Assembly (NCBI RefSeq): GCF_023734095.1
Contig: NZ_AP024620.1
Span: forward strand, 1,732,501-1,796,500
Reading direction: 5' to 3'
Length of the DNA stretch: 64,000 bases
DNA from: Moorella sp. Hama-1
GTDB taxonomy: Bacteria; Bacillota; DSM-521; Neomoorellales; Neomoorellaceae
Shown: positions 19,549-63,359 of the stretch, in pieces
How positions within the stretch are numbered: the stretch's first letter is position 1
Layout: each line of letters opens with the position of its first letter
Position numbers and translations under genes: made by a program
The notes under the pieces: model-generated
Database searches by the model: none
What the model saw: the letters and a program-made list of their open reading frames with translations, nothing else
Told to the model about the DNA's origin: nothing

Positions 19549-19566
19549 ATTTATTCCCCTTTCGTT

Positions 19567-30727: not shown

Positions 30728-32536
30728 CTATCTCCACATCCATTTGCTACTAGGTTTTCCAAAAGAGCGATTAAGGTCGGATATACTAAAATCTGTCGCA
30801 TAAAATTTCTGATAAAACTCTTCTGCTTCGGCAAAAACATCAAAATTAAATATTTCGGGATGAAGAATATTGGCCATATACATCAAACCCAATATCCACC
30901 TGGGACTACCGAAATCCCAACCCGGGGCCGGGTAATTATATATTCTTTTATTCCTTACTGCTTCGACGTCCACACCGGCCGCGCAACAATCGACATAAAA
31001 ATCTTCAACAGGAGCAGATATAAATGCTGAGATAAATATGATTTGCGGGTTGAGGGCATTTAGTTTTTCAACTGAAATTTTCATGCCCGGCCTGCCGCTG
31101 CCTTCTATTTCTTTATTAATGCTAATTCCACCCGCCGCTTCAACCAATTGATTTTCAAAACGTTCCCCTTTAATGCAAAAAAGTGGTTTGCCCATGGCGT
31201 AATATACACGGGGTTTATTGCTGGTAAAACGTAAACCTTTTGTAATCAAAGAAACTCTTTCTTCCAGGTAGGATGCCAGTTCTTCAGCTTTGTTCTCTAG
31301 CCGGATTACCCTGCCGAAATATCTGATTGTTTGCATGTACGTTTGCAGGTTTTGCAGGTCACGATGTAGTTGCGACAACATATTATTACAAAGTACCTCT
31401 TCCCAAACTTGCAATACTTTCTTTTTATCGCTAACACCCATGGTAATTAATATTGCTTCCATCATTTCTAAAGCCCTGGTAAAAGGGTACCCCCCCTGAA
31501 AATCACCTTCCTGGTACTTTGTTTTTGCTAACGTTCCCCTAATACTTTTTAATTCTTGCCCACACCCAGGACATGTATTTCCCTTGATTGAACCCGTATC
31601 TGCCAATCTCAGTTTGGCCCCCATTGGCCCGTAAAAATCCCGCTTATAGATGATTTCCCCGCAGCCGGGACAAAAGGTATTAAGATAATCGGTGCCGGGA
31701 GAATTGAAAAGGTATATATAACTAAGATGTTTTTTCAAGCGCTGGTAAAGTTTTTCTGCCTCCCGTATTGAGGGCTCCAATAAAGGATTGGCATTTTCCA
31801 GCGGTATAAATCGCATTATATGGAGGGGTATATCCTTGGATATTTGAGCTATATGCCGGGCGAGACTTAAAATTTCTTCTTCATTATGTCGTTGATAGAT
31901 ACACGAGATCTCAACATGAATACCGCTTTCAAAAAGTTTTTTAATGTTTCGCAAAACCGGCTTGACCGTGCTGCCGCCACAGCCACGATAAGCCTGGTCA
32001 GACAGGCCTTTAACACCGACATTGATAAAATCCAAATCACTAATTATTTGAGCTAATGAGGTTTCAGTAAAATAAGCGTTCGTAGAACAACCTACCAGCA
32101 GGCCGCAGCTTTTGGCAGCTCCGGCGACTTTAATAAAGGTTGGCAATGAAGCCAGGGGATCGTTCATCAGAAAAGCAATTCCTATACAATCGTTTTTTAT
32201 TGCTTCGCTCACTACTTCTTCCGGCGATAGTTTACGTAAGGCTCTGCTGGCAGGATCCATTTCTTTAGCAATGACTGTTGAAACACACCCATTGCAATTA
32301 AAATTGCACCCTGCCGTGCTAATCTGGAGGAACTTCCCTCCGGGATAAAAATGCAACATGGGCATTGTTTCTATCGAAATCGGACAAACAACAAGATAGT
32401 TATCGGGATAAAGTTCCGTTATTTCTTGCCCGTTATTTTTATAAAGGCCGCACGCCCCTGTTTTGCCTTCTGGAATTACGCAAGCTCTTTCGCAAATACT
32501 ACACTTCATAAATCTTACTTCCATATTGTTATCCAT
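30728..32536 (-). CDS. Radical SAM enzyme fused to an ABC substrate-binding-protein-like domain (copy 1)
   Basis: A 602-residue cytoplasmic protein without signal peptide. The N-terminus (about 9-35, MKCSICERACVIPEGKTGAC) is the Cys-rich lead of PflA/AmmeMemoRadiSam-type enzymes. AGCNFNCNGC (about 78-87) is the SAM cluster, CX3CX2C. A four-Cys zinc ribbon follows (about 284-325, two CPGC knuckles). From about residue 430 to the end it resembles BtuF/FecB-type binding proteins (VYYAMGKPLF, LVEAAGG, MYMANILHPEIFNFD). That end resembles the C-terminus of the exported binding protein encoded at 33205. It is the last gene of a Moco-type-riboswitch operon. Substrate unknown. Confidence 0.78.
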   Translation of the reverse strand: MDNNMEVRFMKCSICERACVIPEGKTGACGLYKNNGQEITELYPDNYLVVCPISIETMPMLHFYPGGKFLQISTAGCNFNCNGCVSTVIAKEMDPASRALRKLSPEEVVSEAIKNDCIGIAFLMNDPLASLPTFIKVAGAAKSCGLLVGCSTNAYFTETSLAQIISDLDFINVGVKGLSDQAYRGCGGSTVKPVLRNIKKLFESGIHVEISCIYQRHNEEEILSLARHIAQISKDIPLHIMRFIPLENANPLLEPSIREAEKLYQRLKKHLSYIYLFNSPGTDYLNTFCPGCGEIIYKRDFYGPMGAKLRLADTGSIKGNTCPGCGQELKSIRGTLAKTKYQEGDFQGGYPFTRALEMMEAILITMGVSDKKKVLQVWEEVLCNNMLSQLHRDLQNLQTYMQTIRYFGRVIRLENKAEELASYLEERVSLITKGLRFTSNKPRVYYAMGKPLFCIKGERFENQLVEAAGGISINKEIEGSGRPGMKISVEKLNALNPQIIFISAFISAPVEDFYVDCCAAGVDVEAVRNKRIYNYPAPGWDFGSPRWILGLMYMANILHPEIFNFDVFAEAEEFYQKFYATDFSISDLNRSFGKPSSKWMWR

Positions 32537-33129
32537 AATCCGGCTTCACCCCTGTTTATTTCAAATTTAGAGATTCCCGCTGCCCCCAATGTCTTTGCAA
32601 AAGTTTCCACAGCATTTTCACCAATATTTTTGTTAATTCTTTCCTGCCAGTTTCTCTCTTTTTGCCCCATCCTGGCATCAATTAACTTTTTTAGTTCAGC
32701 ATTACCAAAGCCTCCGCCAATAAAGGCTGCGCCTTTGGGAGCTAGCACCCTGTATATTTCTTGAAACGCCTTTTGCTGATTTTCCCAAAAAAATATTGAA
32801 CCTCTACTTATTACAAGATCCACCGATTGATCTTTTAACGGGATTTCGTGGACATCACCAAGCAACGTTCTGGCTCTTTTTTGCAAACCATGACCGGCGA
32901 TATTTCGTGTCGCTATTTCCAGCATTTCAGGAGACTTGTCAAATAAATATATAAACAACTCTGTAATACCAGCCAGGGCAATCCCCAGATAACCGCCACC
33001 GCAGCCGATATCCAGGCATGTCCCTCTAGTTATGCCCGTTTTTTGTTTTATTTGTTCCGCAATGACAGGATAAATTGGAGCAAATACCTCCCGGGCGACC
33101 CTATCAAATTCTTCGACATTAATTTCCAT
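32515..33129 (-). CDS. Class I SAM-dependent methyltransferase (copy 1)
   Basis: A 204-residue methyltransferase with CLDIGCGGGYLGIALAG (motif I), YLFDKSPEML, and VISRGSIFFWEN. I choose ATG 33129 (MEINVEEFDR) since GCGAGGG precedes it and the paralogue at 50615 starts at the same place. Its end overlaps the radical SAM-SBP gene by 22 bases, and this pair is kept together in both copies. Confidence 0.85.
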   Translation of the reverse strand: MEINVEEFDRVAREVFAPIYPVIAEQIKQKTGITRGTCLDIGCGGGYLGIALAGITELFIYLFDKSPEMLEIATRNIAGHGLQKRARTLLGDVHEIPLKDQSVDLVISRGSIFFWENQQKAFQEIYRVLAPKGAAFIGGGFGNAELKKLIDARMGQKERNWQERINKNIGENAVETFAKTLGAAGISKFEINRGEAGLWITIWK

Positions 33130-33204: not shown

Positions 33205-34332
33205 TTATTTTCCCCTTGCCTCGGCCAGGAGGATTCCCGCTTCCTGCTCGGATAAGTTATAATGGTAGAACCCGGCATAAAAATCCTTGACCGTTGCCAC
33301 CAGGTCATAATTAAAGACATCCGGGTAAAGAAGGTTGGCCAGCCACTTCACCCCGATGATGCGGTTGACAGAGGGCGGCCGGTCGAACCAGTTGAAGGGC
33401 CCGTGAGGGACCTGGTAGACGCGGTGGTTTTTCACAGCTCTAAGGTTCTGCCATTTAGGGTCTTGCAGGATAGTTTCGTAGGCGCCTCCCTGGGCTACGT
33501 TCCAGGAGAGAATCACATCGGGATCCCAGGATAGCACCTGTTCCAGGGAAACGGAGCTCATCCCCATGCCCCCCGGGCCGCGCTGGGGTGGAATGGCCGC
33601 CACATTGATGCCGCCGACAAAGTCCAGTACCTGGGTATGCTGGGAAGTAGCGGGATCCGTTTGCAGGCCGTTGGACCCTTCGGCGTAGTAAACCCGTACC
33701 TTCCTATCCGGCGGTATTGCCTTAACTTTAGCGGCAACCTCATTGATAGTGTCCCGGCAATAAGCCGCCAGTTCCTGTGCCCGCCGTTTATCTCCCAGCA
33801 GGTCGCCCATGAATTCATAGGCTTGATCCAGTTTCGTGAGTTCGCCGTCAACCATAACCACCGGTATCTGCAACTGCTTCTGGATCTGTTCAGCCTGGGA
33901 AAGAGCCGTGTTGTCCATGTAGCCCATGGAAACGATGACCTGAGGGTGGATTTTTAAGATCTCCTCGATATTGGCCGTGTTTTTAGCATACCAGCCCCCC
34001 AGGTTAGGCAATTTCTGGTACTCGGGCAGGATAAACTTTCTCTCTACTTCGTTTAAATCATTATTCCACCCCGCCAGTTTCTCCGGCGCCAGGGTATAAA
34101 CCATGATGCTCCCCACCGGGTTGGTGGCGAAGACCTTGTTGACTTGGGTTGGAACGGTGACCTGGCGACCGGCCATATCGACTATAGTCCTGTTAGCTGC
34201 TGCTTGACCGGCAGGAGCCTGGCCGGTTGCTTTCTGGCCACTCCCTTGCGAGCCGCAACCCGCCAGGGTGGCAGTCAAGATCAGGATGGCCAGGAGCAAA
34301 CTGACCCATTTACAGGTAAAACGTTTCAACAT
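33205..34332 (-). CDS. BtuF/MolA-type ABC substrate-binding lipoprotein
   Basis: A 375-residue lipoprotein (signal and lipobox ATLAGCGSQ, Cys near 26) of the iron-complex/cobalamin/molybdate class III fold. The ligand loops include DMAGRQVTVP and VYYAEGSNGLQ. The binding protein MolA of Haemophilus belongs to this class and takes molybdate/tungstate. The Moco-type riboswitch upstream supports such a cargo or its chelate. A remnant of its C-terminus is at 50686-50805. Confidence 0.85.
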   Translation of the reverse strand: MLKRFTCKWVSLLLAILILTATLAGCGSQGSGQKATGQAPAGQAAANRTIVDMAGRQVTVPTQVNKVFATNPVGSIMVYTLAPEKLAGWNNDLNEVERKFILPEYQKLPNLGGWYAKNTANIEEILKIHPQVIVSMGYMDNTALSQAEQIQKQLQIPVVMVDGELTKLDQAYEFMGDLLGDKRRAQELAAYCRDTINEVAAKVKAIPPDRKVRVYYAEGSNGLQTDPATSQHTQVLDFVGGINVAAIPPQRGPGGMGMSSVSLEQVLSWDPDVILSWNVAQGGAYETILQDPKWQNLRAVKNHRVYQVPHGPFNWFDRPPSVNRIIGVKWLANLLYPDVFNYDLVATVKDFYAGFYHYNLSEQEAGILLAEARGK

Positions 34333-34365
34333 GATTTTACCCTCCCGTTAATTTTTTTGTAACAT

Positions 34366-35154
34366 TCATTTGCTCACCGGAACGCATACCCGTGTCTCAC
34401 TGCAACCCGGTATTTCGGCCCGGATTATTTTTACATCTACGCCGTACAGGCTTTTCAGGTTCTCTTCGGTCACCGTCTCCTCAGACCGGCCCAGGCTGTA
34501 GACCTGACCCTTCTTCAGAAGCATTGCCTTACTGGCATACAGAAGGGCATGGTCCGGAAAATGCGAGGCCATGATAATGGCCAGGCCGGTATGAGCCAGC
34601 CTCTTAATGTGGCTCAGGACCATGACCTGGTTGCCAAAATCCAGACTGGAAGTGGGTTCATCCATAATTAAAACTTGAGGCTGCTGGGCTAGAGCGCGGG
34701 CGATAAGTACCAGTTGCCTCTCGCCGCCGCTAATCTCGGTATAAACCCGGTCCTGGAGGTGGGAGATATTTAAAGCAGCCATGGCCTCTTGAACGATTTC
34801 CTTATCTTCCGGCGATGGCGCGGCAAAAATTCCCAGGTGGGCCGTCCGGCCCATGAGGACCACGTCCAGGACTTTAAAGGGGAAGGGTGGGGTATGGGCC
34901 TGGGGGATATAACCCATGACCCTGGCTATCCGGGCCTGTGGCCAGCCGCAGATATTTTCACCGCCGAGGAGGATCTCTCCCGCCTGGGGTTTTATCAAGC
35001 CCAGGATAGTTTTGAAAAGAGTCGTCTTCCCCGAACCGTTAGGCCCCAGCAGGCACATTATTTCCCCGGACTCTACCTCCATAGATACCCCGCGGACGAT
35101 TGCCCGGCCCCAGTAGCCACAGGTCACACCTTTAAGCGCCAGCTTCATGACCAT
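34366..35154 (-). CDS. BtuD/MolC-type ABC ATP-binding protein
   Basis: A 262-residue ATPase: Walker A GPNGSGKTT, signature ISGGERQLVLIARAL, Walker B VLIMDEPTSSLD. It overlaps the permease gene by 10 bases and energises it. Confidence 0.9.
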   Translation of the reverse strand: MVMKLALKGVTCGYWGRAIVRGVSMEVESGEIMCLLGPNGSGKTTLFKTILGLIKPQAGEILLGGENICGWPQARIARVMGYIPQAHTPPFPFKVLDVVLMGRTAHLGIFAAPSPEDKEIVQEAMAALNISHLQDRVYTEISGGERQLVLIARALAQQPQVLIMDEPTSSLDFGNQVMVLSHIKRLAHTGLAIIMASHFPDHALLYASKAMLLKKGQVYSLGRSEETVTEENLKSLYGVDVKIIRAEIPGCSETRVCVPVSK

Positions 35155-36197
35155 CCCCTCCGGGTATGCTGTAACAAATACAGGAAAAAGGGGGCGCCAA
35201 TCAAAGCAGTGAGGATACCCAAGGGGATTTCCACCGTTGCCAGCACCCGCGCCAGGTCGTCGACCAACAGCAGGTAGGCGCTGCCCATCAGGATGGTGGC
35301 CGGCAATAAAACCTTATAATTGGGCCCTACCACCATGCGGGCCAAGTGGGGAACCAGCAACCCCACCCACCCAATCATACCGCTGATGGAGACGCAGGCT
35401 GTGGTCATCAGGGTGGAGCACAGGATGACAATCAACCTTAACCTGGCGGTTTCCAGGCCCAGGGCCCGGGCTTCCTCTTCCCCCAGGGAGAGGACGTTAA
35501 GGCGCCAGCGCAGGAGGTAGAGGGGTATTATTCCCAGCAGCACAGGCACCAGGGCCGCATAAACGTCGCGTGGAGAAATAGACGCCAGGCTGCCCATGAG
35601 CCAGAAGGTAATGGCTGGTAATTTATCATATGGGTCGGCCAGGTACTTGATTAAGGAAGTACCGGCAGAAAACAGGGTACCGGTGAGGATACCGGCCAGG
35701 ACCAGAACCAGGGCAGGGTCGTGGCGGATCCTGCTGCTTAAGGCGTAAGCCAGAAATACGGCCAGGAGGCCGAAGAGAAAGGCGCTGACCTGGATGCCGA
35801 TTACCCCCAGGGAGAAATAGATGGCCAGGGCGGCGCCGAAACCGGCGCCGGCCGAGGCCCCCAGGATGTCCGGTGAGACCAGGGGGTTTTTAAACATCCC
35901 CTGGTAAGCGGCGCCGGCGGTCGCCAGGGAGGCCCCGACCAGCATGGCAGCGATAATGCGCGGCAGGCGCACCTGGAAGACTACTGTTTCCACAGTGGCC
36001 GGCCAGGTGGTTTCGATGGGAAATACCTTTGCCGCCAGGATGGTTAGGAGTTGCCCGGGGGATATGGCATAACGGCCCAGAGGAAAAGAGAGCAGGAATA
36101 CCAGGAGCGGCAGGGCCGGCAAAGCGATTTCTCTCCAGCGGTACCCCCTGGCCAGGGGTATATCAGGCGAAGTTTTCCTGGCCAGCGCCAATCGCAA
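35145..36197 (-). CDS. BtuC/MolB-type ABC permease
   Basis: A 350-residue permease with about ten membrane helices and the family core LPRIIAAMLVGASLATAGAA (about 87-106). It overlaps the DUF364 gene by 35 bases and the ATPase gene by 10, so the operon is tightly coupled. Confidence 0.9.
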   Translation of the reverse strand: MRLALARKTSPDIPLARGYRWREIALPALPLLVFLLSFPLGRYAISPGQLLTILAAKVFPIETTWPATVETVVFQVRLPRIIAAMLVGASLATAGAAYQGMFKNPLVSPDILGASAGAGFGAALAIYFSLGVIGIQVSAFLFGLLAVFLAYALSSRIRHDPALVLVLAGILTGTLFSAGTSLIKYLADPYDKLPAITFWLMGSLASISPRDVYAALVPVLLGIIPLYLLRWRLNVLSLGEEEARALGLETARLRLIVILCSTLMTTACVSISGMIGWVGLLVPHLARMVVGPNYKVLLPATILMGSAYLLLVDDLARVLATVEIPLGILTALIGAPFFLYLLQHTRRGWS

Positions 36198-37008
36198 TAA
36201 ACCTCCCCCCCATTGTTACCTGAACGGCCTGTTCCCGGCTCTGCCTGCTCCTCGCTACAGCAAGCCCTTCATCCCGGCTCACCTGAACCATACGGCCGCC
36301 GCCCTTGAATATCTCCAGGCAGCCGCCTTCCTGCACCACCCGCCGTATCAACTCCGGTTCCACAACCACGGTCCCCGCCAGGGTATCAACACCATAATGA
36401 AACAACACAGAAGTCAGCGGGGTGCTGGGGCCCACCAGGATCACCCGCGCCCGGCGGCTGAGCTCCACGAGGCGGGGGAAGGTTTTATTGATCAGGGTGG
36501 TAGCAGTTATAAAGACATAATCCTGCTCCGGGAGGATATACTCACAGGCAGGGTCGGGTAAATCGCCCTCGCGGGGTCGGCGTTCTAAAATCGTGAGTTT
36601 ACAGTTGCGCGCCAAGGGGTCCAGGTCGGGAAAATGTCCGATAACAGTTACCTTTTTACCCCGCACCTGTTCCTGAAAGCAGGTAAAGGCGCTCACCTGG
36701 GGCTGGCTGCTTAAAGGCTGGCCGCAAAGGCTTTCCACCTGTTCCGGCGTGTTTAATACTGAATTTACGGCTGCCAGGCCCAGGGCGGCTTCAAAATTAT
36801 TCCAGGACTTGATGCGCATCGCCAGTTCCCGCACGGGCATGCCTTTTATTTTCCCGGCCAGCTTGATGCGCGGATGGCCCTCCAGGGGCGTCATCACCAG
36901 GCCGGTAGCCCGGGAACGGACCAGGACCCAGTTAAGGCCGACAATGCAATCCTCTACCTCCAGATCCGGCGGCACCCCCGCGATTAACTCATCATAGACT
37001 TCCCACAT
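36163..37008 (-). CDS. DUF4213/DUF364 putative metal-chelation protein
   Basis: A 281-residue member of the family of 18211-18948, with VTVIGHFPD, YVFITATTLINKTF and GPSTPLTSVLFHYGVDTLAG. A tail of about 45 residues is extra. It is the first gene behind the Moco-type riboswitch and overlaps the permease gene, so it is bound to the import operon. Its role, perhaps in holding or presenting the metal complex, is inference. Confidence 0.82.
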   Translation of the reverse strand: MWEVYDELIAGVPPDLEVEDCIVGLNWVLVRSRATGLVMTPLEGHPRIKLAGKIKGMPVRELAMRIKSWNNFEAALGLAAVNSVLNTPEQVESLCGQPLSSQPQVSAFTCFQEQVRGKKVTVIGHFPDLDPLARNCKLTILERRPREGDLPDPACEYILPEQDYVFITATTLINKTFPRLVELSRRARVILVGPSTPLTSVLFHYGVDTLAGTVVVEPELIRRVVQEGGCLEIFKGGGRMVQVSRDEGLAVARSRQSREQAVQVTMGGRFIAIGAGQENFA

Positions 37009-37057
37009 AGCTTTGCCTCCTTATCCTGGCTCTGCCATCTAGCACCACCTAAAACTA

Positions 37058-37084
37058 AAGCCCCACCTGCAGGAAGGTGGGGCT
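37058..37084 (-). terminator. Riboswitch terminator 1
   Basis: Minus strand AGCCCCACCT and AGGTGGGGCT followed by TTAGTTTT, between aptamer 1 and the DUF364 gene. Confidence 0.8.
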
Positions 37085-37127
37085 AATAAAAGCCAGAATC
37101 AGCCATTCATCAGCCACCTCCTTATAC

Positions 37128-37232
37128 ACGAACCTGGGAAGGCATACCAGTTTCCCGGTATACCCCGTGGGCCTCTCAGCCCAGGCCGGTCACCATAGAT
37201 CGCTCCTTAGGTTAGTCCGGCTCGGAGATGCT
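37128..37232 (-). promoter_or_regulatory. Moco/Tuco-type riboswitch 1
   Basis: Minus strand: CATCTCCGAGCCGG, then CCTAAGGAGCGATCTATGG (an 11-nt GAAA-tetraloop receptor split as CCTAAG/TATGG), CCCACGGGGTATACC with a GAAA-type loop, and GCCTTCCCAGG. This is the layout of the molybdenum-cofactor RNA. Two more copies in the window precede Mo-type transport or the radical SAM-SBP genes. Class call rests on remembered consensus. Confidence 0.78.
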
Positions 37233-37441
37233 CAATATTTTATTTTATGTCCTTAAGTCTAATTAACCATATTCAACATGCACTCTAAAACTCCTGCCTG
37301 TCGGCATTAAATTCTTATTCCCCCGCGTCCCCGTTTGAAGTAGTGGATCTATGATAAGGTTGCCCGCCTCTGCGGCTGGCCGTTGCCTAAAAAATAGAAA
37401 AGCCCCTTTGCCAGGGAAAATACGCGCTTATCCAGCAGCAT

Positions 37442-44488: not shown

Positions 44489-44555
44489 GCGCTGGGCGGC
44501 ACCGCTGTTACCTCCTGATTAGTGCTTTCTCCCTCGCCACCCGCGTAAAGAAGGA

Positions 44556-45182
44556 TCAGGCAGGGGATATAACGCCCCAGCCGCGGCTGTATTGCTCCGC
44601 GCAGGGGATGCAAGCCAGGCGGCCTTCCCTGATCCTGGCCCGTACTTCCGCCACCGGTTCGCCGCAAAAGGCGCAGGTCACGGAATGAAAAAGGCGGGCC
44701 CGGGGTGGCAGGTCCAGCTCAACCTGCTCCACCTTAAATAATTCCCCTTCCGGCGCCGTCAGGATTTGTTGCCACCGTTGTTCCTGGCAGCGGCCATAGG
44801 CCTCCCTTTCCTCCGGTGTCGCCTGGCCGCTAAAGACCCTGGCCCGCAAGTTCTTGTACTCCTTGTCTTCCTGCCAGGCGCCGCCGTTGAAGGCCACCCG
44901 GACGGCAGCACCCGATTTCCTGTCGCCAAGGGTAAAGACATGCTTGCCATAATCCCGGTAGATGAGATTGCCTTTACCCAAAGTACAGCCGGTCAGGACC
45001 TGGATGGCATCCACGCCGCAGGCGTCGGTTTCGACGATAGCCACCAGTTCTTCATCACTAGCCCGGTCGCTCGTCAATTCTCGCAGGGCGATTTTAGCGG
45101 CCCGGTAACCGATAGCCAGGCCGGGACAGGTATGCCCATGAAAGGCCACCGCCCTTTTCCAATCATCTGGTAAGGAATTCAT
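44556..45182 (-). CDS. FmdE-family protein
   Basis: A 208-residue protein: FHGHTCPGLAIGYRAA (about 13-28), the family's Cys-containing site, and ETDACGVDAIQVLTGCTLG. A C-terminal zinc ribbon has CAFC and CIPC pairs. The family is named for a subunit of tungsten formylmethanofuran dehydrogenase and is common beside Mo/W transport genes. I use ATG 45182, with GGAGGAG upstream, rather than the longer reading from 45218. It heads the second BtuCDF-type operon. Confidence 0.85.
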   Translation of the reverse strand: MNSLPDDWKRAVAFHGHTCPGLAIGYRAAKIALRELTSDRASDEELVAIVETDACGVDAIQVLTGCTLGKGNLIYRDYGKHVFTLGDRKSGAAVRVAFNGGAWQEDKEYKNLRARVFSGQATPEEREAYGRCQEQRWQQILTAPEGELFKVEQVELDLPPRARLFHSVTCAFCGEPVAEVRARIREGRLACIPCAEQYSRGWGVISPA

Positions 45183-45212
45183 TTTTATCAACTCCTCCTG
45201 GAAATATAAAAT

Positions 45213-45259
45213 AACCACGCCGGGTACCCCTGCGTGGGGTTTTAGTACCCTTCGTGGTT
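45213..45259 (-). terminator. Long hairpin in the FmdE leader
   Basis: Outer arms AACCACG and CGTGGTT enclose a GGGTAC-type inner stem; on the minus strand ATTTTAT follows. It could attenuate FmdE expression. No Moco-type aptamer is recognisable before it. Confidence 0.5.
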
Positions 45260-45356
45260 ACATCCACAACCTTCATGGCTGCCTTTACTTTATTCGCTAT
45301 GCAAACCCAAATTCCTGCTGGTTAATTAAAAATCACGATTACGACTACCGTTGCAG

Positions 45357-47038: not shown

Positions 47039-47278
47039 CTATTGCAAGCCTTTTTTCACCATGGTAAGCAGCCTTACGCCGCGCCCGTGCAATTGCTGGA
47101 ATACCACGCCTGCCGGCGGTACCCGGACCGGGTCACGGTAGAACCATACCCGCCGCAAAAACCAGAGAAGGATAGTGATAATTATCGCTGCAAGAAGAAA
47201 TATCGTAAAGAGGATTAAACCAACAGGGTTCACAGGCGAGATTAGCGATATTGCAGGTAAAACAGGTAAAATTACCAT
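47039..47278 (-). pseudogene. Chimera: PS decarboxylase N-terminus joined to DUF364 C-terminus
   Basis: The first 58 codons (to RDPVRVPPA) equal the start of the decarboxylase at 55012-55782. The last 21 (QQLHGRGVRLLTMVKKGLQ) equal the end of DUF364 (60695 copy). The frame is open across the join at 47110. It keeps a membrane helix but no catalytic part. Confidence 0.8.
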
Positions 47279-47351
47279 CCTGACAACCCCTTCTTTATGC
47301 TTTAAGGCATTCCATCAAGATCAGGGCCAGAGACTTCGTTAATAATGACAT

Positions 47352-47381
47352 AAAAAGTCCCCGCGAATAAAAAGCGGGGGC
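47352..47381 (-). terminator. Terminator of PPOX copy 1
   Basis: Arms GTCCCCGC and GCGGGGGC with TTTTTATG after on the minus strand. The same hairpin occurs at 55856-55885 after copy 2. Confidence 0.8.
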
Positions 47382-47407
47382 AATAGTTCTTCTTACACCG
47401 TTAAAAA

Positions 47408-47809
47408 TTATAATTCTTTACCCAAGGTATCGCCAGGTTGGCAAATATAAACATTAGTAACTTCGACAAGCACAGCGGATTGGGGATGCAGTGCTGGCAT
47501 TGCCTGCTTGACCCAGGCCACCGCATCGTCGAAAACCTGACCTGAAGTATGGATAGTGGCTTTTCCTTTTATTTGGTAGGCCTGCTTATCTTCTAGATTC
47601 CAGGTGCATACGGCGATATAAGGATTGTTTTTAAGATTGTCTTTGGATTTCTCCATGAAATTATCCACGACTAAAAGATGATCGTCATCATACACTTTGA
47701 CAAAAGTCATCGGCACCACATTGGGTATTCCCTCTTTAGACGCAGTAGCTACCGGAAAAACTCCCTGCTTTGCGATTACATTTTTAATTTCCGTATTCAA
47801 TTTGGCCAT
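47408..47809 (-). CDS. Pyridoxamine 5'-phosphate oxidase-family protein (copy 1)
   Basis: A 133-residue split-barrel flavin-binding protein. GVFPVATAS, NVVPMTFV and NNPYIAVCTWN are typical of the PPOX group, which holds FMN, F420 or haem. Copy 2 at 55912-56313 differs by about one residue. It has its own consensus promoter and a structured leader. Enzymatic role unknown. Confidence 0.82.
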   Translation of the reverse strand: MAKLNTEIKNVIAKQGVFPVATASKEGIPNVVPMTFVKVYDDDHLLVVDNFMEKSKDNLKNNPYIAVCTWNLEDKQAYQIKGKATIHTSGQVFDDAVAWVKQAMPALHPQSAVLVEVTNVYICQPGDTLGKEL

Positions 47810-47848
47810 AATCGAAACCCCCTTTTCCTCAAAAAATAAATTTTACTT

Positions 47849-47980
47849 GTAACTACTTAGCCTACCTGGCCGGTCAGCCCGGCAGTGAAAGCATGGAAGG
47901 CCCATCTGGGTAGCGTGGTTGCGCCATACTGACAGTATGTAGCCCCGCAGAAGCTAATTACGACGGTAGCCTGAGTAGTT
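47849..47980. repeat. Inverted-repeat-bounded structured element, copy 1
   Basis: Ends read GTAACTACTTAGCCTACC and GGTAGCCTGAGTAGTT on the plus strand and can pair. It fills the 5' leader of the PPOX gene. A diverged relative is at 52789-52910 in the opposite orientation. Confidence 0.65.
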
Positions 47981-47993
47981 TTTTTACTTTAAA

Positions 47994-48022
47994 ATTATAC
48001 CCGTTAAAATAACATATGTCAA
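47994..48022 (-). promoter_or_regulatory. Consensus promoter with CATATG operator (copy f)
   Basis: Minus strand TTGACA (48017-48022), spacer TATGTTATTTTAACGGG, TATAAT (47994-47999). The region 48034-48213 beyond it holds no gene I can name. Confidence 0.82.
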
Positions 48023-48213
48023 ATATACTGACCCTTGTCCACCCTCACTAGGGCGGTTTTTACCGCCACTTCATGGACAGGCCATATTCCGCTCGCCGTA
48101 AATTTTCGTGACGGCCATTTTCGCGATTTTTAGGCTGTTTGCGTGGTAGCGGATAATTTTGTGGGTAACTGCCTCTGCAGTGCTTCTTTTAGGGACGAAA
48201 AGAATGAAACACT

Positions 48214-50022
48214 CTATTTCCACATCCATTTATTACTAGGTTTGCCAAAGGAGCGATTGAGATCGGATATGCTAAAATCCGTCGCATAAAATCTCTGATA
48301 AAACTCTTCTGCCGCGGCAAAAACATCAAAATTAAATATTTCGGGGTGAAGAATATTGGCCATATACATCAAACCCAATACCCACCTGGGACTCCCGAAA
48401 TCCCAACCCGGAGCCGGATGATTGTATATTCTTTTATTCCTTACCGCTTCGACGTCCACACCGGCCGCGCAACAATCGGCATAAAAATCTTCAACAGGAG
48501 CAGATATAAATGCTGAGATAAATATGATTTGCGGGTTGAGGGCATTCAGTTCCGCCGCTGAAATTTTCCTGCCCGGCCTGCCGCTGCCTTCTATTTCTTT
48601 ATTAACGCTAATTCCGCCTGCCGCTTCTACTAATTGATTCTCAAAACGTTCCCCTTTGATGCAAAAAAGCGGTTTGCCCATGGCGTAATATACCCGGGGT
48701 TTATTGCTGCTAAAACGCAAACCTGTTGCAACCAAAGAAACTCTTTCTTCCAGATAGGACGCCAATTCTTCAGCTCTGTCTTCGAGCCGGATTACCCTGC
48801 CGAAATATCTGATTGTTTGCATGTACGTTTGCAGGTTTTGGAGGTCACGATGTAGTTGCGACAGCATATTATTACAAAGTACCTCTTCCCAAACCTGTAA
48901 TACTTTCTTTTTATCGCTAACACCCATGGTAATTAATATTGCTTCCATCATTTCTAAAGCCCTGGTAAAAGGGTAACCCCCTTGAAAATCACCTTCCTGA
49001 AACTTCGTTTTTGCTAATATTCCTCTAATATTTTTTAATTCTTGCCCACACCCGGGACACGTATTTCCTCTGATTAAACCCGCATCTGCCAATCTCAGTT
49101 TGGCCCCCATTGGCCCATAAAAGTCCCGCTTATAGATGGTTTCCCCGCAATTAGGACAAAAGGTATTCAGATAATCGGTGCCGGGAGAATTGAAAAGGTA
49201 TATATAACTAAGATTTTTTTTCAAGCGCTGGTAAAGTTTTTCCGCCTCCCGTATTGAAGGCTCCAATTTAGGATCGGCATTTTCCAGCGGTATAAACCGC
49301 ATTATCTGCAGGGGTATATCCTTAGATATTTGAGCTATATGCCGGGCGAGACTTAAAATCTCTTCTTCATTATGGCGTTGATAGATACACGAGATCTCAA
49401 CATGAATACCACTTTCATAAAGCTTTTTTATGTTGCGTAAAACCGGCTCGACCGTGCTACCGCCACAGCCACGATAAGCCTGGTCAGACAAGCCTTTAAC
49501 ACCGACATTGATAAAATCCAAATCGCTAATTATTTGAGCTAATGATGTTTCAGTGAAATAGGCGTTCGTAGAACAACCTACCAACAAGCCGCGGCTTTTG
49601 GCAGCTCCGGCGACTTTAATAAAGGTTGGCAAGGAAGCCAGGGGATCGTTCATCAGAAAAGCAATTCCAATACAATCGTTTTTTATTGCTTCGCTCACTA
49701 CTTCTTCCGGCGCTAGTTTACGCAAGGCTCTGCTGGCAGGATCCATTTCTCTGGCGATGACCGTGGCAATGCACCCATTGCAATTAAAATTGCACCCTGC
49801 AGTGCTAATCTGGAGGAACTTACCTCCGGGATAAAAATGCAACATGGGCATTGTTTCGATCGAAATCGGACAAACAACGAGATAATTATTGGGATAAAGT
49901 TCCGTTATTTCTTGCCCGTTATTTTTATAAAGACCGCACGCCCCTGTTTTGCCTGCTGGAATCACGCAAGCTCTTTCGCAAATACTACACTTCATAAATC
50001 TTATTTCCATATTGTTATCCAT
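48214..50022 (-). CDS. Radical SAM enzyme fused to an SBP-like domain (copy 2)
   Basis: A 602-residue paralogue of 30728-32536 with the same length and all cysteines: CSICERAC, AGCNFNCNGC, and the ribbon CPNC...CPGC. Differences are mostly conservative and spread along the protein, so both copies look selected. It follows the methyltransferase copy and riboswitch 3, but no transporter genes. Confidence 0.78.
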   Translation of the reverse strand: MDNNMEIRFMKCSICERACVIPAGKTGACGLYKNNGQEITELYPNNYLVVCPISIETMPMLHFYPGGKFLQISTAGCNFNCNGCIATVIAREMDPASRALRKLAPEEVVSEAIKNDCIGIAFLMNDPLASLPTFIKVAGAAKSRGLLVGCSTNAYFTETSLAQIISDLDFINVGVKGLSDQAYRGCGGSTVEPVLRNIKKLYESGIHVEISCIYQRHNEEEILSLARHIAQISKDIPLQIMRFIPLENADPKLEPSIREAEKLYQRLKKNLSYIYLFNSPGTDYLNTFCPNCGETIYKRDFYGPMGAKLRLADAGLIRGNTCPGCGQELKNIRGILAKTKFQEGDFQGGYPFTRALEMMEAILITMGVSDKKKVLQVWEEVLCNNMLSQLHRDLQNLQTYMQTIRYFGRVIRLEDRAEELASYLEERVSLVATGLRFSSNKPRVYYAMGKPLFCIKGERFENQLVEAAGGISVNKEIEGSGRPGRKISAAELNALNPQIIFISAFISAPVEDFYADCCAAGVDVEAVRNKRIYNHPAPGWDFGSPRWVLGLMYMANILHPEIFNFDVFAAAEEFYQRFYATDFSISDLNRSFGKPSNKWMWK

Positions 50023-50615
50023 AATCCGGCTTCACCCCTGTTTATTTCAAATTTAGAGATTCCCGCTGCCCCCAATGTCTTTACAAAACTCTCCACAGCA
50101 TTCTCGCCAATATTTTTGTTAATTCTTTCCTGCCAGTTTCTATCTTTTTGCACCATCCTGGCATCAATTAACTTTTTTAGTTCGGCATTACCAAAGCCCC
50201 CGCCAATAAAGGCTGCGCCCTGGGGAGCGAGTACCCTGTATATTTCTTGAAACGCCTTTTGCTGATTTTCCCAAAAAAATATTGACCCTCTACTTATTAC
50301 AAGATCCACCGATTGATCTTTTAACGGGATTTCGTGGACATCACCAAGCAACGTTCTGGCTTTTTTTTGCAAACCATAACCGGCGATATTTCGTGTCGCT
50401 TTTTTCAGCATTTCAGGAGACTGATCAAATAAGTATATATACAATTCGGTAATACCAGCCAGGGCAATCCCCAGATAACCGCCACCGCAGCCGATATCCA
50501 GGCATCTCCCTCTAGTTATGCCTGTTTTTTGTTTTATTTGTTCCGCAATGACAGGATAAACCGGAGCAAATACCTCCCGGGCGACCCTATCAAATTCTTC
50601 GACATTAATCTCCAC
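50001..50615 (-). CDS. Class I SAM-dependent methyltransferase (copy 2)
   Basis: A 204-residue paralogue of 32515-33129 with CLDIGCGGGYLGIALAG. The start is GTG 50615 (VEINVEEFDR), behind GCGAGGGG. It overlaps the radical SAM-SBP gene by 22 bases, as copy 1 does, and is now the first gene after riboswitch 3. Confidence 0.85.
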   Translation of the reverse strand: MEINVEEFDRVAREVFAPVYPVIAEQIKQKTGITRGRCLDIGCGGGYLGIALAGITELYIYLFDQSPEMLKKATRNIAGYGLQKKARTLLGDVHEIPLKDQSVDLVISRGSIFFWENQQKAFQEIYRVLAPQGAAFIGGGFGNAELKKLIDARMVQKDRNWQERINKNIGENAVESFVKTLGAAGISKFEINRGEAGLWITIWK

Positions 50616-50685
50616 TTTAATCCCCTCGCTTTCCAATGTAGCAACGTCATGTTCCTTCCGGAAACCTGAGGGACGGGTAAACCCG

Positions 50686-50805
50686 CCCCTTCTCTATTCT
50701 CCCCTTACCCCGGCCAGGAGGATTTTCGCTTCCTAATCGGATAAGTTATAGTGGTAAAATCTGGCATAAAAATTTTTGACCGTTGCCAACAGGTCAAGAT
50801 TAAAA
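50686..50805 (-). pseudogene. C-terminal remnant of the BtuF/MolA-type binding protein
   Basis: The bases align with 33199-33316, including the codons for FYHYNLSE. The match then stops abruptly and the riboswitch 3 terminator begins, marking the join of an internal deletion. Confidence 0.8.
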
Positions 50806-50812
50806 AAACTAA

Positions 50813-50838
50813 AGCCCCACCTGTAGAAGGGTGGGGCT
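50813..50838 (-). terminator. Riboswitch terminator 3
   Basis: Minus strand AGCCCCACC and GGTGGGGCT with TTTAGTTTTTTT after. Confidence 0.8.
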
Positions 50839-50883
50839 AATAAAAGCTAGAATCAGCTCGTCATCAGCCACCTCCTTATACAC

Positions 50884-50984
50884 AAACCTGGGAAGGCATA
50901 CCCGTTTCCCGGTATACCCCGTGGGCCTCACAGCCCAGGCCGGCCACCATAGATCGCTCCTTAGGTTAATCCGGCTCGGAGATG
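50884..50984 (-). promoter_or_regulatory. Moco/Tuco-type riboswitch 3
   Basis: About 95% the same as 37128-37232, including CCTAAGGAGCGATCTATGG. It now controls the methyltransferase/radical SAM-SBP pair directly. Confidence 0.78.
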
Positions 50985-51050
50985 TCAATATTTTATTTTA
51001 TGCCCTTAAGTCTAATTAGACATATTCAACATACTCTCTAAAATTCCTGC

Positions 51051-51338
51051 CTATGAGCATAAAAATCCTATTCCTCCGTGTCCTCCGCTTAAGGTTATTC
51101 GGTCACCTTCTTTTACCCAGCCGCTCTTTATCACCCGGCAATAAATACCTTCCGTCCTTAAAGGTGCCGGCCCCGGAAAAAAGAGGCTCGAAGGTTCATC
51201 TTCCTGCTTGCCGATTTGCATAACCTCAACAATCTCAACAATTGCTTCTCCCACTGAAAGTCTAACCCCCACCATAACTCCTTCTAAATTAATGCCCTGA
51301 ACGGTAATGTTTTCGGCAAAATCACCAGGTTGCAATTG
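51051..51338 (-). pseudogene. MOSC gene lacking its N-terminal third
   Basis: Reads QPGDFAENITVQGINLEG to the end of the domain, including EGIYCRVIKSG. The first 60 or so residues are replaced by the end of the ArsR gene, which it overlaps. A short GGHGGIGFLCS tail is extra. Confidence 0.75.
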
Positions 51339-51630
51339 TATCATTAATGAGTTTCTCAACAATAATTTCTTCGACTAATTTCATCAACGTAATTATTCGG
51401 GGATCAGTAATACGATAAAATACCTGCAAACCCTTTTTGGTGGTATCAACGAGATCTTGCTTGCGTAAAATGGCCAAGTGCTGCGAAACATTAGGTTGTT
51501 CCAACTCAAGTTCATCTATTAATTCACATACGCATCGCTCACCATAGAACAAAAAATTTATTATTCTTACTCTCGTTGGATGGGCCAGGGCTTTAAAAAA
51601 CTCAGCCTTCATAAAATCAATGCCTTTCAT
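51322..51630 (-). CDS. ArsR/SmtB-family repressor
   Basis: A winged-helix regulator of 102 residues: FFKALAHPTRVRIINFL, then GERCVCELIDELELEQPNVSQ shortened to the core RCVCEL (the CXC metal or thiol site in helix 3), SQHLAILRKQDLV. I use the second ATG, 51630, because GGAGG is too close to the first. Its tail (KLINDTIATW) runs into the MOSC fragment and may be altered. It has a promoter at about 51650-51690 (TTGAGA, TATAAC). It is a candidate for the CATATG-box regulator. Confidence 0.82.
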   Translation of the reverse strand: MKGIDFMKAEFFKALAHPTRVRIINFLFYGERCVCELIDELELEQPNVSQHLAILRKQDLVDTTKKGLQVFYRITDPRIITLMKLVEEIIVEKLINDTIATW

Positions 51631-52919: not shown

Positions 52920-54008
52920 CTACAAACCAAAGAGCTTGTAGCAGTTAATGCACGGCAGGGGAGGCGCCGGTACTTCCGGGTTATCCAGGAGAAAAGGGTT
53001 GGTCAGGTCCAGGCGGTGACGGAAGGGCTGTTTAAATTCCCGGGCAGTTTTGTTTTTGATTACCCTGGTCAGACCTTCAGTAATGTTGCCATAATTAAAG
53101 GGGTTAAAGGACGCTTCCCCACGGCAAAAGTAACGTGATACCACACCTTTATAGGGCAGTCCCAGGTAAACACAGGGAGCTACTTCACCGTGGCTGTTGA
53201 TAAAAATATGTTTTAAGGGCCGGGCATCGCAGACCATGACATCGGGATTAAACTGCAAAGGATAGACTCTTAAAGGGAATCCCAGCCTCCGGGCCCGTTC
53301 TTCAGCGTCTTGGATGGCAAGAAGATATTCTTCAGAAATTACTTCTCCCGGGCAGGCAAAAACCCTTAAAGCCTCCATCTCCGGGGAAAGGGTAAAATCC
53401 AGGTTGGTGGCCACTACTTCATCGGCCCCGGCGCCGGCAGCCAGTTCCACAAAGGCCGCTAACTCCTGTATATTTCTTTTGGTCATCAGGTAAGAGCAGA
53501 GAATTTTGGGCAAAGGGCTACTTTGCTTTTGTTTGATATCTGCCAGACGGCTAATATTGGTCAGCAATCGTTTGAGGCTGGAGCCGGAACGTAACGCGGC
53601 GTGGGTAAGCGGGTTGCCCCCGGCTACCGAAAGGCCCAGAAGGTCACATCCCATTTCCACCAACCGCTCCAGGATAGCAGGTCCCAATAAAATGCCATTG
53701 GTAGTAAAACCTACCTGGCAGCCCTGTTCTTTAGCCAGCTGCATCATATCCAATAGCCGCGGGTGCAACAGGGGCTCGCCCCAGCCCTGGAAGTAGATCA
53801 AGCCTACCTGGCGCAGATAAGGGGCAATATAGCGCACGAAGAGTTCCCACGGGAAGTCGGCGCCATACCAGCCGTCCGGCAAAAGGGTGTGAGGACAAAA
53901 AAAACACTTCAGCTGGCAGCGGCTGGTGACCTCCAGCTGCAGCACCGGTATTCTCCGCCCTGATGGAAAAAGTCTCTGAAGAAAAGTTTTGATGTTTGGC
54001 CCTTTCAT
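52920..54008 (-). CDS. Radical SAM/SPASM protein
   Basis: A 362-residue enzyme: TSRCQLKCFFCPH (CX3CX2C near 31-38), GWGEPLLHP, and a C-terminal SPASM-like cysteine set (VAPCVYLG, YFCRGE, PCINCYKLFGL). Such enzymes modify peptides or small molecules and use extra Fe-S clusters. Fragments of its 3' end lie at 18973 and 60720, always beside DUF364 genes, so the families were once neighbours. Confidence 0.82.
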   Translation of the reverse strand: MKGPNIKTFLQRLFPSGRRIPVLQLEVTSRCQLKCFFCPHTLLPDGWYGADFPWELFVRYIAPYLRQVGLIYFQGWGEPLLHPRLLDMMQLAKEQGCQVGFTTNGILLGPAILERLVEMGCDLLGLSVAGGNPLTHAALRSGSSLKRLLTNISRLADIKQKQSSPLPKILCSYLMTKRNIQELAAFVELAAGAGADEVVATNLDFTLSPEMEALRVFACPGEVISEEYLLAIQDAEERARRLGFPLRVYPLQFNPDVMVCDARPLKHIFINSHGEVAPCVYLGLPYKGVVSRYFCRGEASFNPFNYGNITEGLTRVIKNKTAREFKQPFRHRLDLTNPFLLDNPEVPAPPLPCINCYKLFGL

Positions 54009-54476: not shown

Positions 54477-54911
54477 TTACGTAATTATGGTCACCCAATC
54501 ACCTATTTTTACCCAGCCGCTTTTTACCACCCGGCAATAAATACCTTCGGTCTTTAAAGGCGTCGGCTTTGGGAAAGAGGAGACTGATGGTTCATCATCC
54601 GGTTTCCCAATTTGCGTAACTTCAACAATTGCTTCTCCCACCAAAAACCTGACCCCAACTTTAATCCCTTCTAAATTAATGCCCTGGACGGTAATGTTTT
54701 CGGCAAAATCACCCGGTTGAAATGGAATGCCTAAAGTACCGGCCAATTTTTTAGCCCTCTCAACCATAAAAAAACTCACCTGACGGATAGTTCCCGCATG
54801 AGCATCCCCTTGCAAACCGTAATCAGCAATAAGGTAACCGGAACCAATATTAGTTTTCTTCATTCCTTTTTGGCGGCTGAGATTAACACCGATAACTTTA
54901 CCTGTTGCCAT
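54477..54911 (-). CDS. MOSC-domain protein (second copy)
   Basis: A 144-residue paralogue of 19567-20007 with GDAHAGTIR, PGDFAENITVQG and EGIYCRVVKSG. It lies downstream of the PS decarboxylase gene with a 100-base gap. A Moco- or sulfur-related role is inferred from the family. Confidence 0.85.
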   Translation of the reverse strand: MATGKVIGVNLSRQKGMKKTNIGSGYLIADYGLQGDAHAGTIRQVSFFMVERAKKLAGTLGIPFQPGDFAENITVQGINLEGIKVGVRFLVGEAIVEVTQIGKPDDEPSVSSFPKPTPLKTEGIYCRVVKSGWVKIGDWVTIIT

Positions 54912-55011: not shown

Positions 55012-55782
55012 CTATTTCATCCCATTTGAGGGCTGGTAGCAGGCCACCACCGTCCTGGCGCCATATACCTGCTGTCCTACCCGGACAGTGAACTCAATTT
55101 CTTCACTAAATATAACCAGGTCCACCTGAGAACCACGCTCGATAAAAGATATCTTCTGACCCCGGTCGACTACCTGGCCGGGCTTGATAAAATTGTTGAT
55201 TTTGTTGACAAACCTGTCGGCTATCTCTACTACAGCTATCTTAATACCTTTACCATCCAAAAAGACGGTCAAACGTTCATTTATCAGGCGGTAGCGATGA
55301 GAAAAGAGATCCACCACCCGCCGGAAGTAGGTCAAGCGGATGTATTCCCAGAGGTCCACCATAGGCAAATTAACCTTGGCCTGGGTATGGACCATATCCA
55401 CCACCCTGGCGGTAATAGGAGCGTAGTTAAAGTGGACATCCAGGGGCGACATATAAATCCCTACGATCCAGCCCCGGTCGCCCCGGACCGGGGCTTTCAT
55501 TATTTCCCCGACAGGGATAACCTGGTCCAACTTTTCGGCCACTACCTCTCCGTTCAGGAAGGGTTTGATATATACCACCTTGCCGTCGGCCGGGGCCAGG
55601 ATAGTTCCTGCTTCTGCCGGCGGTACCCGGACCGGGTCACGGTAGAACCATACCCGCCGCAAAAACCAGAGAAGGATAGTGATAATTATCGCTGCAAGAA
55701 GAAATATCGTAAAGAGGATTAAACCAACAGGGTTTACAGGCGAGATTAGCGATATTGCAGGTAAAACAGGTAAAATTACCAT
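55012..55782 (-). CDS. psd: Phosphatidylserine decarboxylase
   Basis: A 256-residue enzyme with two N-terminal membrane helices (about 8-45), RDPVRVPPAEAGTILAPADG, SPLDVHFNYAPI with the catalytic histidine, and FIERGSQVDLV. The GS pair there is the self-cleavage site that makes the pyruvoyl group. It makes phosphatidylethanolamine from phosphatidylserine. Its first 58 codons are duplicated in the chimera at 47039. Confidence 0.88.
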   Translation of the reverse strand: MVILPVLPAISLISPVNPVGLILFTIFLLAAIIITILLWFLRRVWFYRDPVRVPPAEAGTILAPADGKVVYIKPFLNGEVVAEKLDQVIPVGEIMKAPVRGDRGWIVGIYMSPLDVHFNYAPITARVVDMVHTQAKVNLPMVDLWEYIRLTYFRRVVDLFSHRYRLINERLTVFLDGKGIKIAVVEIADRFVNKINNFIKPGQVVDRGQKISFIERGSQVDLVIFSEEIEFTVRVGQQVYGARTVVACYQPSNGMK

Positions 55783-55911
55783 CCTGACAACCCCTTCTTT
55801 ATGCTTTAAGGCATTCCATCAAGATCAGGGCCAGAGACTTCGTTAATAATGACATAAAAAGTCCCCGCGAATAAAAAGCGGGGGCAATAGTTCTTCTTAC
55901 ACCGTTAAAAA

Positions 55912-56313
55912 TTATAATTCTTTACCCAAGGTATCGCCAGGTTGGCAAATATAAACATTAGTAACTTCGACAAGCACAGCGGATTGGGGATGCAGTGCTG
56001 GCATTGCCTGCTTGACCCAGGCCACCGCATCGTCGAAAACCTGACCTGAAGTATGGATAGTGGCTTTTCCTTTTATTTGGTAGGCCTGCTTATCTTCTAG
56101 ATTCCAGGTGCATACGGCGATATAAGGATTGTTTTTAAGATTGTCTTTGGATTTCTCCATGAAATTATCCACGACTAAAAGATGATCGTCATCATACACT
56201 TTGACAAAAGTCATCGGCACCACATTGGGTATTCCAAGTTTAGACGCAGTAGCTACCGGAAAAACTCCCTGCTTTGCGATTACATTTTTAATTTCCGTAT
56301 TCAATTTGGCCAT
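55912..56313 (-). CDS. Pyridoxamine 5'-phosphate oxidase-family protein (copy 2)
   Basis: A 133-residue near-identical copy of 47408-47809 (ASKLGIP in place of ASKEGIP). Here it stands upstream of the complete PS decarboxylase gene, so this is probably the original position and the 47-kb copy the duplicate. Confidence 0.82.
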   Translation of the reverse strand: MAKLNTEIKNVIAKQGVFPVATASKLGIPNVVPMTFVKVYDDDHLLVVDNFMEKSKDNLKNNPYIAVCTWNLEDKQAYQIKGKATIHTSGQVFDDAVAWVKQAMPALHPQSAVLVEVTNVYICQPGDTLGKEL

Positions 56314-56352
56314 AATCGAAACCCCCTCTTCCTCAAAAAATAAATTTTACTT

Positions 56353-56484
56353 GTAACTACTTAGCCTACCTGGCCGGTCAGCCCGGCAGTGAAAGCATGG
56401 AAGGCCCATCTGGGTAGCGTGGTTGCGCCATACTGACAGTATGTAGCCCCGCAGAAGCTAATTACGACGGTAGCCCGAGTAGTT
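56353..56484. repeat. Inverted-repeat-bounded structured element, copy 2
   Basis: Same sequence as 47849-47980, in the leader of the second PPOX gene. Confidence 0.65.
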
Positions 56485-56497
56485 TTTTTACTTTAAA

Positions 56498-56526
56498 ATT
56501 ATACCCGTTAAAATAACATATGTCAA
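56498..56526 (-). promoter_or_regulatory. Consensus promoter with CATATG operator (copy g)
   Basis: Duplicate of 47994-48022: TTGACA, 17-base spacer, TATAAT. Bases 56538-56696 hold no recognisable gene. Confidence 0.82.
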
Positions 56527-56696
56527 ATATACTGACCACCACGATAGAGTCCAGCCATTGCACCCAACCCCCTGAGGTTTCTCGTTTTAGTTCTCTCAGG
56601 GATAATTGGTACTGGTGCCTTGAAGGGGCCTTTTCCCAAACATTTGCGTCCCCCAGCAAAACCTTCCCTCGACGGCCGCAAGAACGGCAACGCCAG

Positions 56697-57532: not shown

Positions 57533-58017
57533 TCAACTTTTACACATAAAATCTATGTTGCTTACAGGATGCTCACCATAGACCACAATCAACCGCTTAT
57601 GTCCCTTCCCAACCAAAGCTTGGACCTCTTTCTCCAGCTGATCCCAGTTGAGTGTTTTGCCCTTAACCTGGGAATTAGAGTGCCGGAAACCGCAGTAAAG
57701 ACAATCATTAATACATGGACTCGAGATGTAAAGCGGCGCAAAGAGCACGATCCGGTTGCCGTAGATAGCCTGCTTAATCTCGCGTGCAACCGCGTACGTT
57801 TCCTGCCAGAGGTCTTCATTGGTGTTGTTAAGAAGCACGGCTGTTTCTTCCGGTGTCAGTCCCATCAAACTCCTGGCCTTCGCCAGGATCTCCCGTACTC
57901 GGGCTACAGGTGGGTTAGCTGTCCCCGCTAGCAGTGCTTCAATCATAGCATCATTGATAAAATCCCGCCTGGTTTCCCGTGCTTCGTGCTGTAAGATCTT
58001 CTCTAAACGTTGTAATT
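57533..58017 (-). pseudogene. HydG-type radical SAM fragment
   Basis: Reads FINDAMIEALL, then MGLTPEETAVLL, and PCINDCLYCGFRHSN with the CX3CX2C cluster of HydG ([FeFe]-hydrogenase maturase), then stops at VSNIDFMCKS. Only about 160 of some 470 residues remain, and no clear start is left. A perfect 11-bp inverted repeat (CGCTATTTGGT, 58029-58059) lies at its upstream edge. Confidence 0.75.
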
Positions 58018-59956: not shown

Positions 59957-59957
59957 T

Positions 59958-62535: not shown

Positions 62536-62572
62536 CCAATTTACCAATACCACTATAGGAGAGGCTGTTATT

Positions 62573-63334: not shown

Positions 63335-63359
63335 AGAGGAATAGAATGGAGGGACGTCG

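Follow-up and report, generated by a model that had tools for sequence, protein, structure and literature searches.

The Moco/tungsten-cofactor riboswitch has been described in 8 copies in Desulfitobacterium hafniense and in at least 15 in Syntrophomonas wolfei, with repressing action reported for the Moco riboswitch class and a P3 stem linked to Moco and not to the tungsten cofactor (Regulski et al. 2008, PMC2408646). Among importers, the closest described system is the type II MolBC-A system of H. influenzae, whose MolA protein binds molybdate and tungstate (PMC4031551). The window analysed here, a 64,000-nucleotide stretch of Moorella sp. Hama-1 DNA, encodes two related operons predicted to be under such a riboswitch (copies 1 and 2), and a third (copy 3) lies just outside it. 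These resemble the operons of PMC2408646 in their aptamer, terminator-type expression platform, and molybdate/tungstate transport and cofactor synthesis genes, but differ in that three arrangements of one operon occur in one genome together with a deletion scar that can be dated; neither “radical SAM” nor “methyltransferase” occurs in the main text of that paper. The permease, ATPase, and binding protein of copies 1 and 3 resemble those of MolBC-A (PMC4031551) in sequence. Unlike that system, the operon adds DUF364, a methyltransferase, and a radical-SAM fusion, and copy 2 is without any importer gene. The radical-SAM half of the fusion aligns over residues 10–329 with the AmmeMemoRadiSam family (TIGR04337), although its score of 130.8 bits falls below the curated cut-off of 220 and the fusion carries an extra MolA-like half domain. 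We consider it quite probable that copy 2 derives from a Moco-riboswitch operon comprising DUF364, a MolBCA-type importer, the methyltransferase, and the fusion, of whose genes it keeps only the enzyme pair, with the control and role proposed below included. As a genome-evolution event in a little-studied Moco-controlled system, it is well supported.

Comparison of copy 2 (48214–51095) with copy 1 (30728–37341) by BLASTN gave only two main collinear blocks, a leader block (51095–50805 in copy 2, 37341–37051 in copy 1; 89.4% identity) and an enzyme-pair block (50804–48214 and 33315–30728; 92.9% identity). The 3,735 bp that separate these blocks in copy 1 (33316–37050) have left no base in copy 2, where the 111-bp scar is all that remains of the importer genes. 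An earlier note, made from the letters of the window, had claimed the loss of about 3.7 kb carrying DUF364, the permease, the ATPase, and most of the binding protein, and the size of the gap, its collinear flanks, the scar, and the junction bear this out. That note had proposed aligning 30728–37340 with 48214–51090 and named similarity confined to the genes as the outcome that would contradict it; the alignment gave the two blocks instead. The upstream limit of homology between the copies is near 51095/37341, and the downstream limit is the radical-SAM stop codon. The features are as follows.

Copy 2, 50994..51095, minus strand: leader 5′ of the aptamer, common to copy 1 (89% block and four-copy alignment).
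Copy 2, 50856..50993, minus strand: predicted Moco riboswitch aptamer with P3 stem present (RF01055, 61.1 bits, model positions 1–135).
Copy 2, 50813..50838, minus strand: riboswitch terminator hairpin, then T-run (folding and sequence).
Copy 2, 50804..50805, minus strand: deletion junction, 3,735 bp missing relative to copy 1 (BLASTN and four-copy alignment).
Copy 2, 50694..50804, minus strand: scar, the final 111 bp of the binding-protein gene, with in-frame TAG and evolution at the synonymous rate (alignment).
Copy 2, 50001..50615, minus strand: class I SAM-dependent methyltransferase gene with GTG start (PF08241, 77.4 bits; start by alignment).
Copy 2, 48214..50022, minus strand: radical-SAM enzyme with the C-terminal half of a MolA-like binding protein (PF04055, 65.4 bits).
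Copy 1, 37102..37239, minus strand: predicted Moco riboswitch aptamer (RF01055, 65.6 bits).
Copy 1, 33316..37050, minus strand: segment missing from copy 2, comprising the leader end, DUF364, permease, ATPase, and binding-protein codons 1–339 of 375 (BLASTN).
Copy 1, 36163..37008, minus strand: DUF4213/DUF364 protein (PF04016, 138.3 bits; 3l5o, 5e-51).
Copy 1, 35145..36197, minus strand: FecCD-type permease, MolB-like (best solved match HI1471, 3.6e-80).
Copy 1, 34366..35154, minus strand: ABC ATPase, MolC-like (best solved match HI1470, 2.9e-44).
Copy 1, 33205..34332, minus strand: substrate-binding lipoprotein, MolA-like (HI1472, 3e-19; 4pag, 1.1e-53).
Copy 1, 32515..33129, minus strand: methyltransferase (alignment).
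Copy 1, 30728..32536, minus strand: radical-SAM/half-binding-protein fusion (open reading frame).

The junction sits within the terminator T-run, where the joined sequences share a short T-rich microhomology. The terminator sequence is GGGGCTTTAGTTTTTTTAATCTTGACC in copy 2 and GGGGCTTTAGTTTTAGG in copy 1, and the binding-protein gene sequence at the join is GATGTCTTTAATTATGACC in copy 1 and GATGTTTTTAATTATAACC in the congener G009. This microhomology fits an illegitimate deletion, which we infer as the mechanism. The cut had been placed where the terminator begins; in the direction of transcription it lies at the terminator's end. A C-terminal remnant of the binding protein, given before as 120 bases, is indeed present, but it measures 111 bp and is followed by 78 bp of spacer common to both copies. 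Within this scar a CAG codon has become TAG in frame, and the remnant cannot be functional. The 3.7-kb deletion runs from the terminator T-run to the 3′ end of the binding-protein gene, so that the switch, still intact, now precedes the enzyme genes by about 190 nt. A single deletion has here joined an undamaged riboswitch to new first genes, and the event can be dated.

Both aptamers are complete and score above the RF01055 gathering score of 36 (Rfam), and the P3 stem is fully paired (UGGGC/GCCCA) in each according to the Rfam alignment. By the P3 rule (PMC2408646), the copy 2 switch is a predicted Moco riboswitch of the Moco type; the genome holds 8 RF01055 riboswitches. When the leader was folded, an antiterminator using the P1 3′ strand reached −22.6 kcal/mol versus −18.5 kcal/mol for the competing terminator, and aptamer, antiterminator, and terminator are all retained in copy 2. 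Since the deletion left these three elements whole, the enzymes are now the first genes of a predicted Moco-repressed unit. When Moco is short, the copy 2 leader would form the antiterminator and the enzymes would be made, while plentiful Moco would hold P1, free the terminator, and stop transcription, in agreement with the repressing action described in PMC2408646; copy 2 would answer the same signal as the importer copies. The leader 5′ of the aptamer, the inner part of which also occurs in copy 3 and the G009 operon by four-copy alignment, probably holds the promoter. No match to the sigma-70 consensus was found on the minus strand of the copy 2 leader, and a promoter there is a prediction.

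The closest solved structures to the copy 1 permease and ATPase are HI1471 and HI1470 (MolB and MolC), with FhuB next for the permease at 5.2e-50. The binding protein matches HI1472 (MolA), which ranks behind two functionally unnamed binding proteins. The lost importer thus appears closest to the molybdate/tungstate importer MolBCA, with its substrate predicted.

Both enzyme reading frames of copy 2 are open, encoding 602 aa for the radical-SAM protein and 204 aa for the methyltransferase from its conserved GTG. Together with the complete RF01055 aptamer, this agrees with the view taken in the earlier note that copy 2 keeps its riboswitch, methyltransferase, and radical-SAM/binding-protein gene and that both enzyme pairs are intact. 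Membership of the radical-SAM superfamily is indicated by the PF04055 score, well above its cut-off of 29.5 bits, and by a CxxxCxxC motif whose cysteines C77, C81, and C84 are invariant. Residues of about 384–582 match only the C-terminal part of binding proteins, with 24% identity to the operon's own binding protein and a match to HI1472 as well. Against the full two-lobe PF01497 model the fused domain scores 19.7 bits, below the 27.5-bit cut-off, with only the C-terminal part aligning; nonetheless, Foldseek finds a binding-protein fold in it (4ovk, 2.3e-12; 3psa, 2.8e-09). The AlphaFold model of the fusion is of moderate quality (pLDDT 76, pTM 0.78). No signal peptide was apparent on inspection of its N-terminus, and therefore the fusion should be cytoplasmic. 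The half binding protein suggests that the radical-SAM enzyme may hold the imported compound.

Pairwise dN/dS between copies 1 and 2 was 0.129 for the radical-SAM gene (95% interval 0.086–0.187; dS 0.24) and 0.227 for the methyltransferase (dS 0.13). The earlier note had asked for this estimate, treating a value near 1 in copy 2 as evidence against it, and such a value did not occur. Pairwise dN/dS mixes both copies; changes were polarised with G009, a congener with one complete operon. In the enzymes, copy 2 carries 37 private nonsynonymous changes in 1,871 sites (0.020) and 70 private synonymous changes in 547 sites (0.128), while the scar has 12 in 96 sites (0.125; 95% interval 0.066–0.208). 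The scar has therefore changed at the enzyme synonymous rate, six times the nonsynonymous rate (Fisher p=1.9e-6), which places the deletion near the start of the copy-2 branch and, by the interval, certainly not in its last third. The scar test and the low nonsynonymous rate together demonstrate, at the level of sequence, that the deletion is old and that both copy 2 enzymes have since been kept by purifying selection without an importer in cis. Alignment of nine homologues gave 155 invariant columns, and copy 2 keeps 152 of them (exceptions S86A, I548V, and E570A). Copy 1 differs at two of the same columns, Q239H and H535Y, the latter replacing, in copy 1 and not in copy 2, an otherwise invariant histidine of the fused binding-protein domain (30728–32536).

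The scar test led us to reject copy 2 as a decaying leftover. It is highly improbable that the copy 2 enzymes are redundant with those of copy 1 and intact merely through recency: copy 1 does supply the same enzymes, and the scar and the reshuffled, fragment-rich surroundings of copy 2 could be taken as signs of decay, but scar divergence of 12.5%, like that of synonymous sites, against 2.0% at nonsynonymous sites, a copy-2 branch omega of 0.079–0.198, and the lack of any stop or frameshift in the enzyme genes argue otherwise. This clock may be blurred by recombination or gene conversion, as the branching order obtained from the methyltransferase gene differs from that of the radical-SAM gene. 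Some of the constraint seen in copy 2 could have come from copy 1 by conversion, but 70 synonymous changes found in copy 2 alone speak against extensive conversion.

A third, reciprocal copy containing the importer without the enzymes, which the earlier note had missed, is located about 66 kb away at G000:C1 1699976–1704936 (L044 4027–8864; −32525 to about −27566 relative to the window). Copy 3 encodes a Moco riboswitch (62 bits), DUF364, permease, ATPase, and binding protein, all with open reading frames, and its proteins are 75–91% identical to those of copy 1, with dN/dS of 0.15–0.19 for the importer genes. Neither the methyltransferase and radical-SAM genes nor remnants of them were found in copy 3, which has a clean join: after the binding-protein gene, the methyltransferase leader ACATGACGTTG runs straight into the stretch that lies downstream of the radical-SAM gene in copy 1, and on its downstream side copy 3 is flanked by sequence matching the znu region that follows copy 1. 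The enzyme pair has a GC content of 0.42 versus 0.55–0.60 for the importer genes. Given this and the absence of any enzyme relic, a later insertion of the pair in the copy-1 line explains the difference at least as well as a deletion in copy 3, which would look the same. Importer-only, importer-plus-enzymes, and enzymes-only forms thus share a chromosome, where they span about 84 kb of a region rich in diverged duplicated fragments. With the coding parts of this one Moco-controlled operon conserved in all three states, importer and enzymes can be kept apart from each other, which suggests that the enzymes do something worth keeping by itself in molybdenum/tungsten metabolism; these natural variants make the role of two uncharacterised enzymes testable.

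The origin of the copies was considered in relation to G009, a member of the same genus. Over 6.7 kb, copy 1 is 94.8% identical in DNA to the G009 operon, with dS of about 0.1, although rpoB dS between the two species is 1.04; the operon has therefore moved between species, either from one of the two to the other or from a third source. The radical-SAM gene tree places copy 2 outside copy 1 plus G009 in 2000/2000 bootstraps, so the split of copy 2 predates the transfer between copy 1 and G009. The methyltransferase tree does not give this order and short patches differ, which suggests recombination. The earlier statement that a whole operon was duplicated within this genome is consequently unproven, since separate acquisitions are possible; duplication here is plausible. 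A substantial possibility, falling short of probable, is that copies 1 and 2 are xenologues, two horizontal acquisitions at different times of which the older lost its importer. The G009 distances and the bootstrap result favour this, as do the lack of a full-length fusion in all nine other congeners (two incomplete) and an IS110 transposase near the G009 copy. However, the proximity of three copies in a region full of diverged internal duplications makes local duplication plausible, and transfer of copy 1 from this lineage to G009 would give the same distances. Copy 1 seemed to carry the tail of the MOSC gene that adjoins copy 2, which would have made the copy 2 site the ancestral one. This idea was rejected, because that MOSC gene has lost its N-terminal part and its final 12 codons extend beyond the MOSC domain and lie in the leader of the operon itself.

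The fusion is rare, being present in 5 of 398 sampled genomes of the phylum. With regard to the importer INDEPENDENCE, the pair usually lies beside MolBCA-type genes in relatives. Several features in relatives link the system to Mo/W: a Moco riboswitch precedes it in Syntrophomonas, in MAGs of Syntrophomonadaceae and Desulfosporosinus (one each), and in G013; MoeA is encoded inside the cluster in G035, and two AOR genes lie directly downstream of the G009 operon. In G204 (L095 6144–11840), the pair follows an NMT1/TauABC-type ABC system and adjoins an HTH-TOBE gene, and MolBCA is not beside it. The Desulfosporosinus MAG (L071 8650–11785) encodes a Moco riboswitch, then a BioB/HmdB-like radical-SAM gene, then the fusion gene, with no methyltransferase or importer between riboswitch and fusion; AOR, formate dehydrogenase, and two MoeA genes lie upstream. 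No MolBCA genes were detected near the distant homologue in L077 (42% identity). The pair is thus separable from the importer and not tied to one importer type.

It had been suggested that the enzymes work without a dedicated importer. This does not follow from copy 2, since copies 1 and 3 keep the importer, have a riboswitch of the same class, and could supply copy 2 in trans. That the pair functions independently of any such importer, for example on an internal cofactor intermediate, seems unlikely to us: copy 2 itself, the Desulfosporosinus and G204 arrangements, and the 97%-complete G015 assembly, in which no MolB-like permease was found at 1e-40, are consistent with it, but this genome has two MolBCA-type copies, MolB-like permeases are encoded elsewhere in G013 and G204, importer and pair occur together in most relatives, and the fused binding-protein half suggests a ligand shared with the importer. 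In the preferred reading, the copy 2 enzymes would act in the cytoplasm in Mo/W acquisition or cofactor assembly, using what the importers of copies 1 and 3 bring in, and copy 2 would add enzyme dosage or keep a distinct enzyme version. The fused half binding protein might hold an imported Mo/W compound for the radical-SAM domain, and the methyltransferase might act in the same series of steps. The open-access literature yielded nothing on this enzyme pair in Mo/W metabolism. ChuW-type anaerobic heme-processing radical-SAM enzymes are encoded with heme importers and offer an analogy only, that of an importer paired with a radical-SAM enzyme that processes an imported metal compound, although the ligand here is predicted to be Mo/W-related rather than heme. 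A bolder proposal, which we regard as unlikely, is that the fusion is a new kind of cytoplasmic processor, in which the lobe would capture an imported Mo/W complex and radical chemistry and the methyltransferase would modify or open it, as a module under Moco-riboswitch control maintained separately from the importer. If so, copy 2 would be a natural experiment separating the enzyme module from the importer.

The surroundings of copy 2 contain further duplicated and truncated genes. In the neighbouring MOSC gene (51051–51362) the N-terminal half is missing and the reading frame ends within the operon leader; the window has longer MOSC copies at 54477–54911 and about 19566–20028. A radical-SAM gene near copy 2 (52920–54008) resembles the tungsten-oxidoreductase maturase family TIGR04317, at 120 bits and below the cut-off of 380. 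A 924-bp segment occurs twice (47110–48033 and 55614–56537; 99.4% identity) and carries a pyridoxamine-oxidase-like gene and the 5′ part of a phosphatidylserine-decarboxylase-like gene that is intact at 55012–55782; the copy at 47110, which borders copy 2 on the downstream side, appears to have been inserted recently. A DUF364-like and radical-SAM gene pair is duplicated at 18211–21038 and 59027–60695 (80–84% DNA identity), and a CooC-like maturation ATPase is duplicated with neighbouring sequence in opposite orientation at 11988–14166 and 62561–63998 (75–83% identity). An FmdE-like gene is found both at 44534–45325 and at −1426 to −628 relative to the window, about 46 kb apart with 91% DNA identity, and a truncated HydG-like fragment of 137 aa (57533–57946) is probably a pseudogene.
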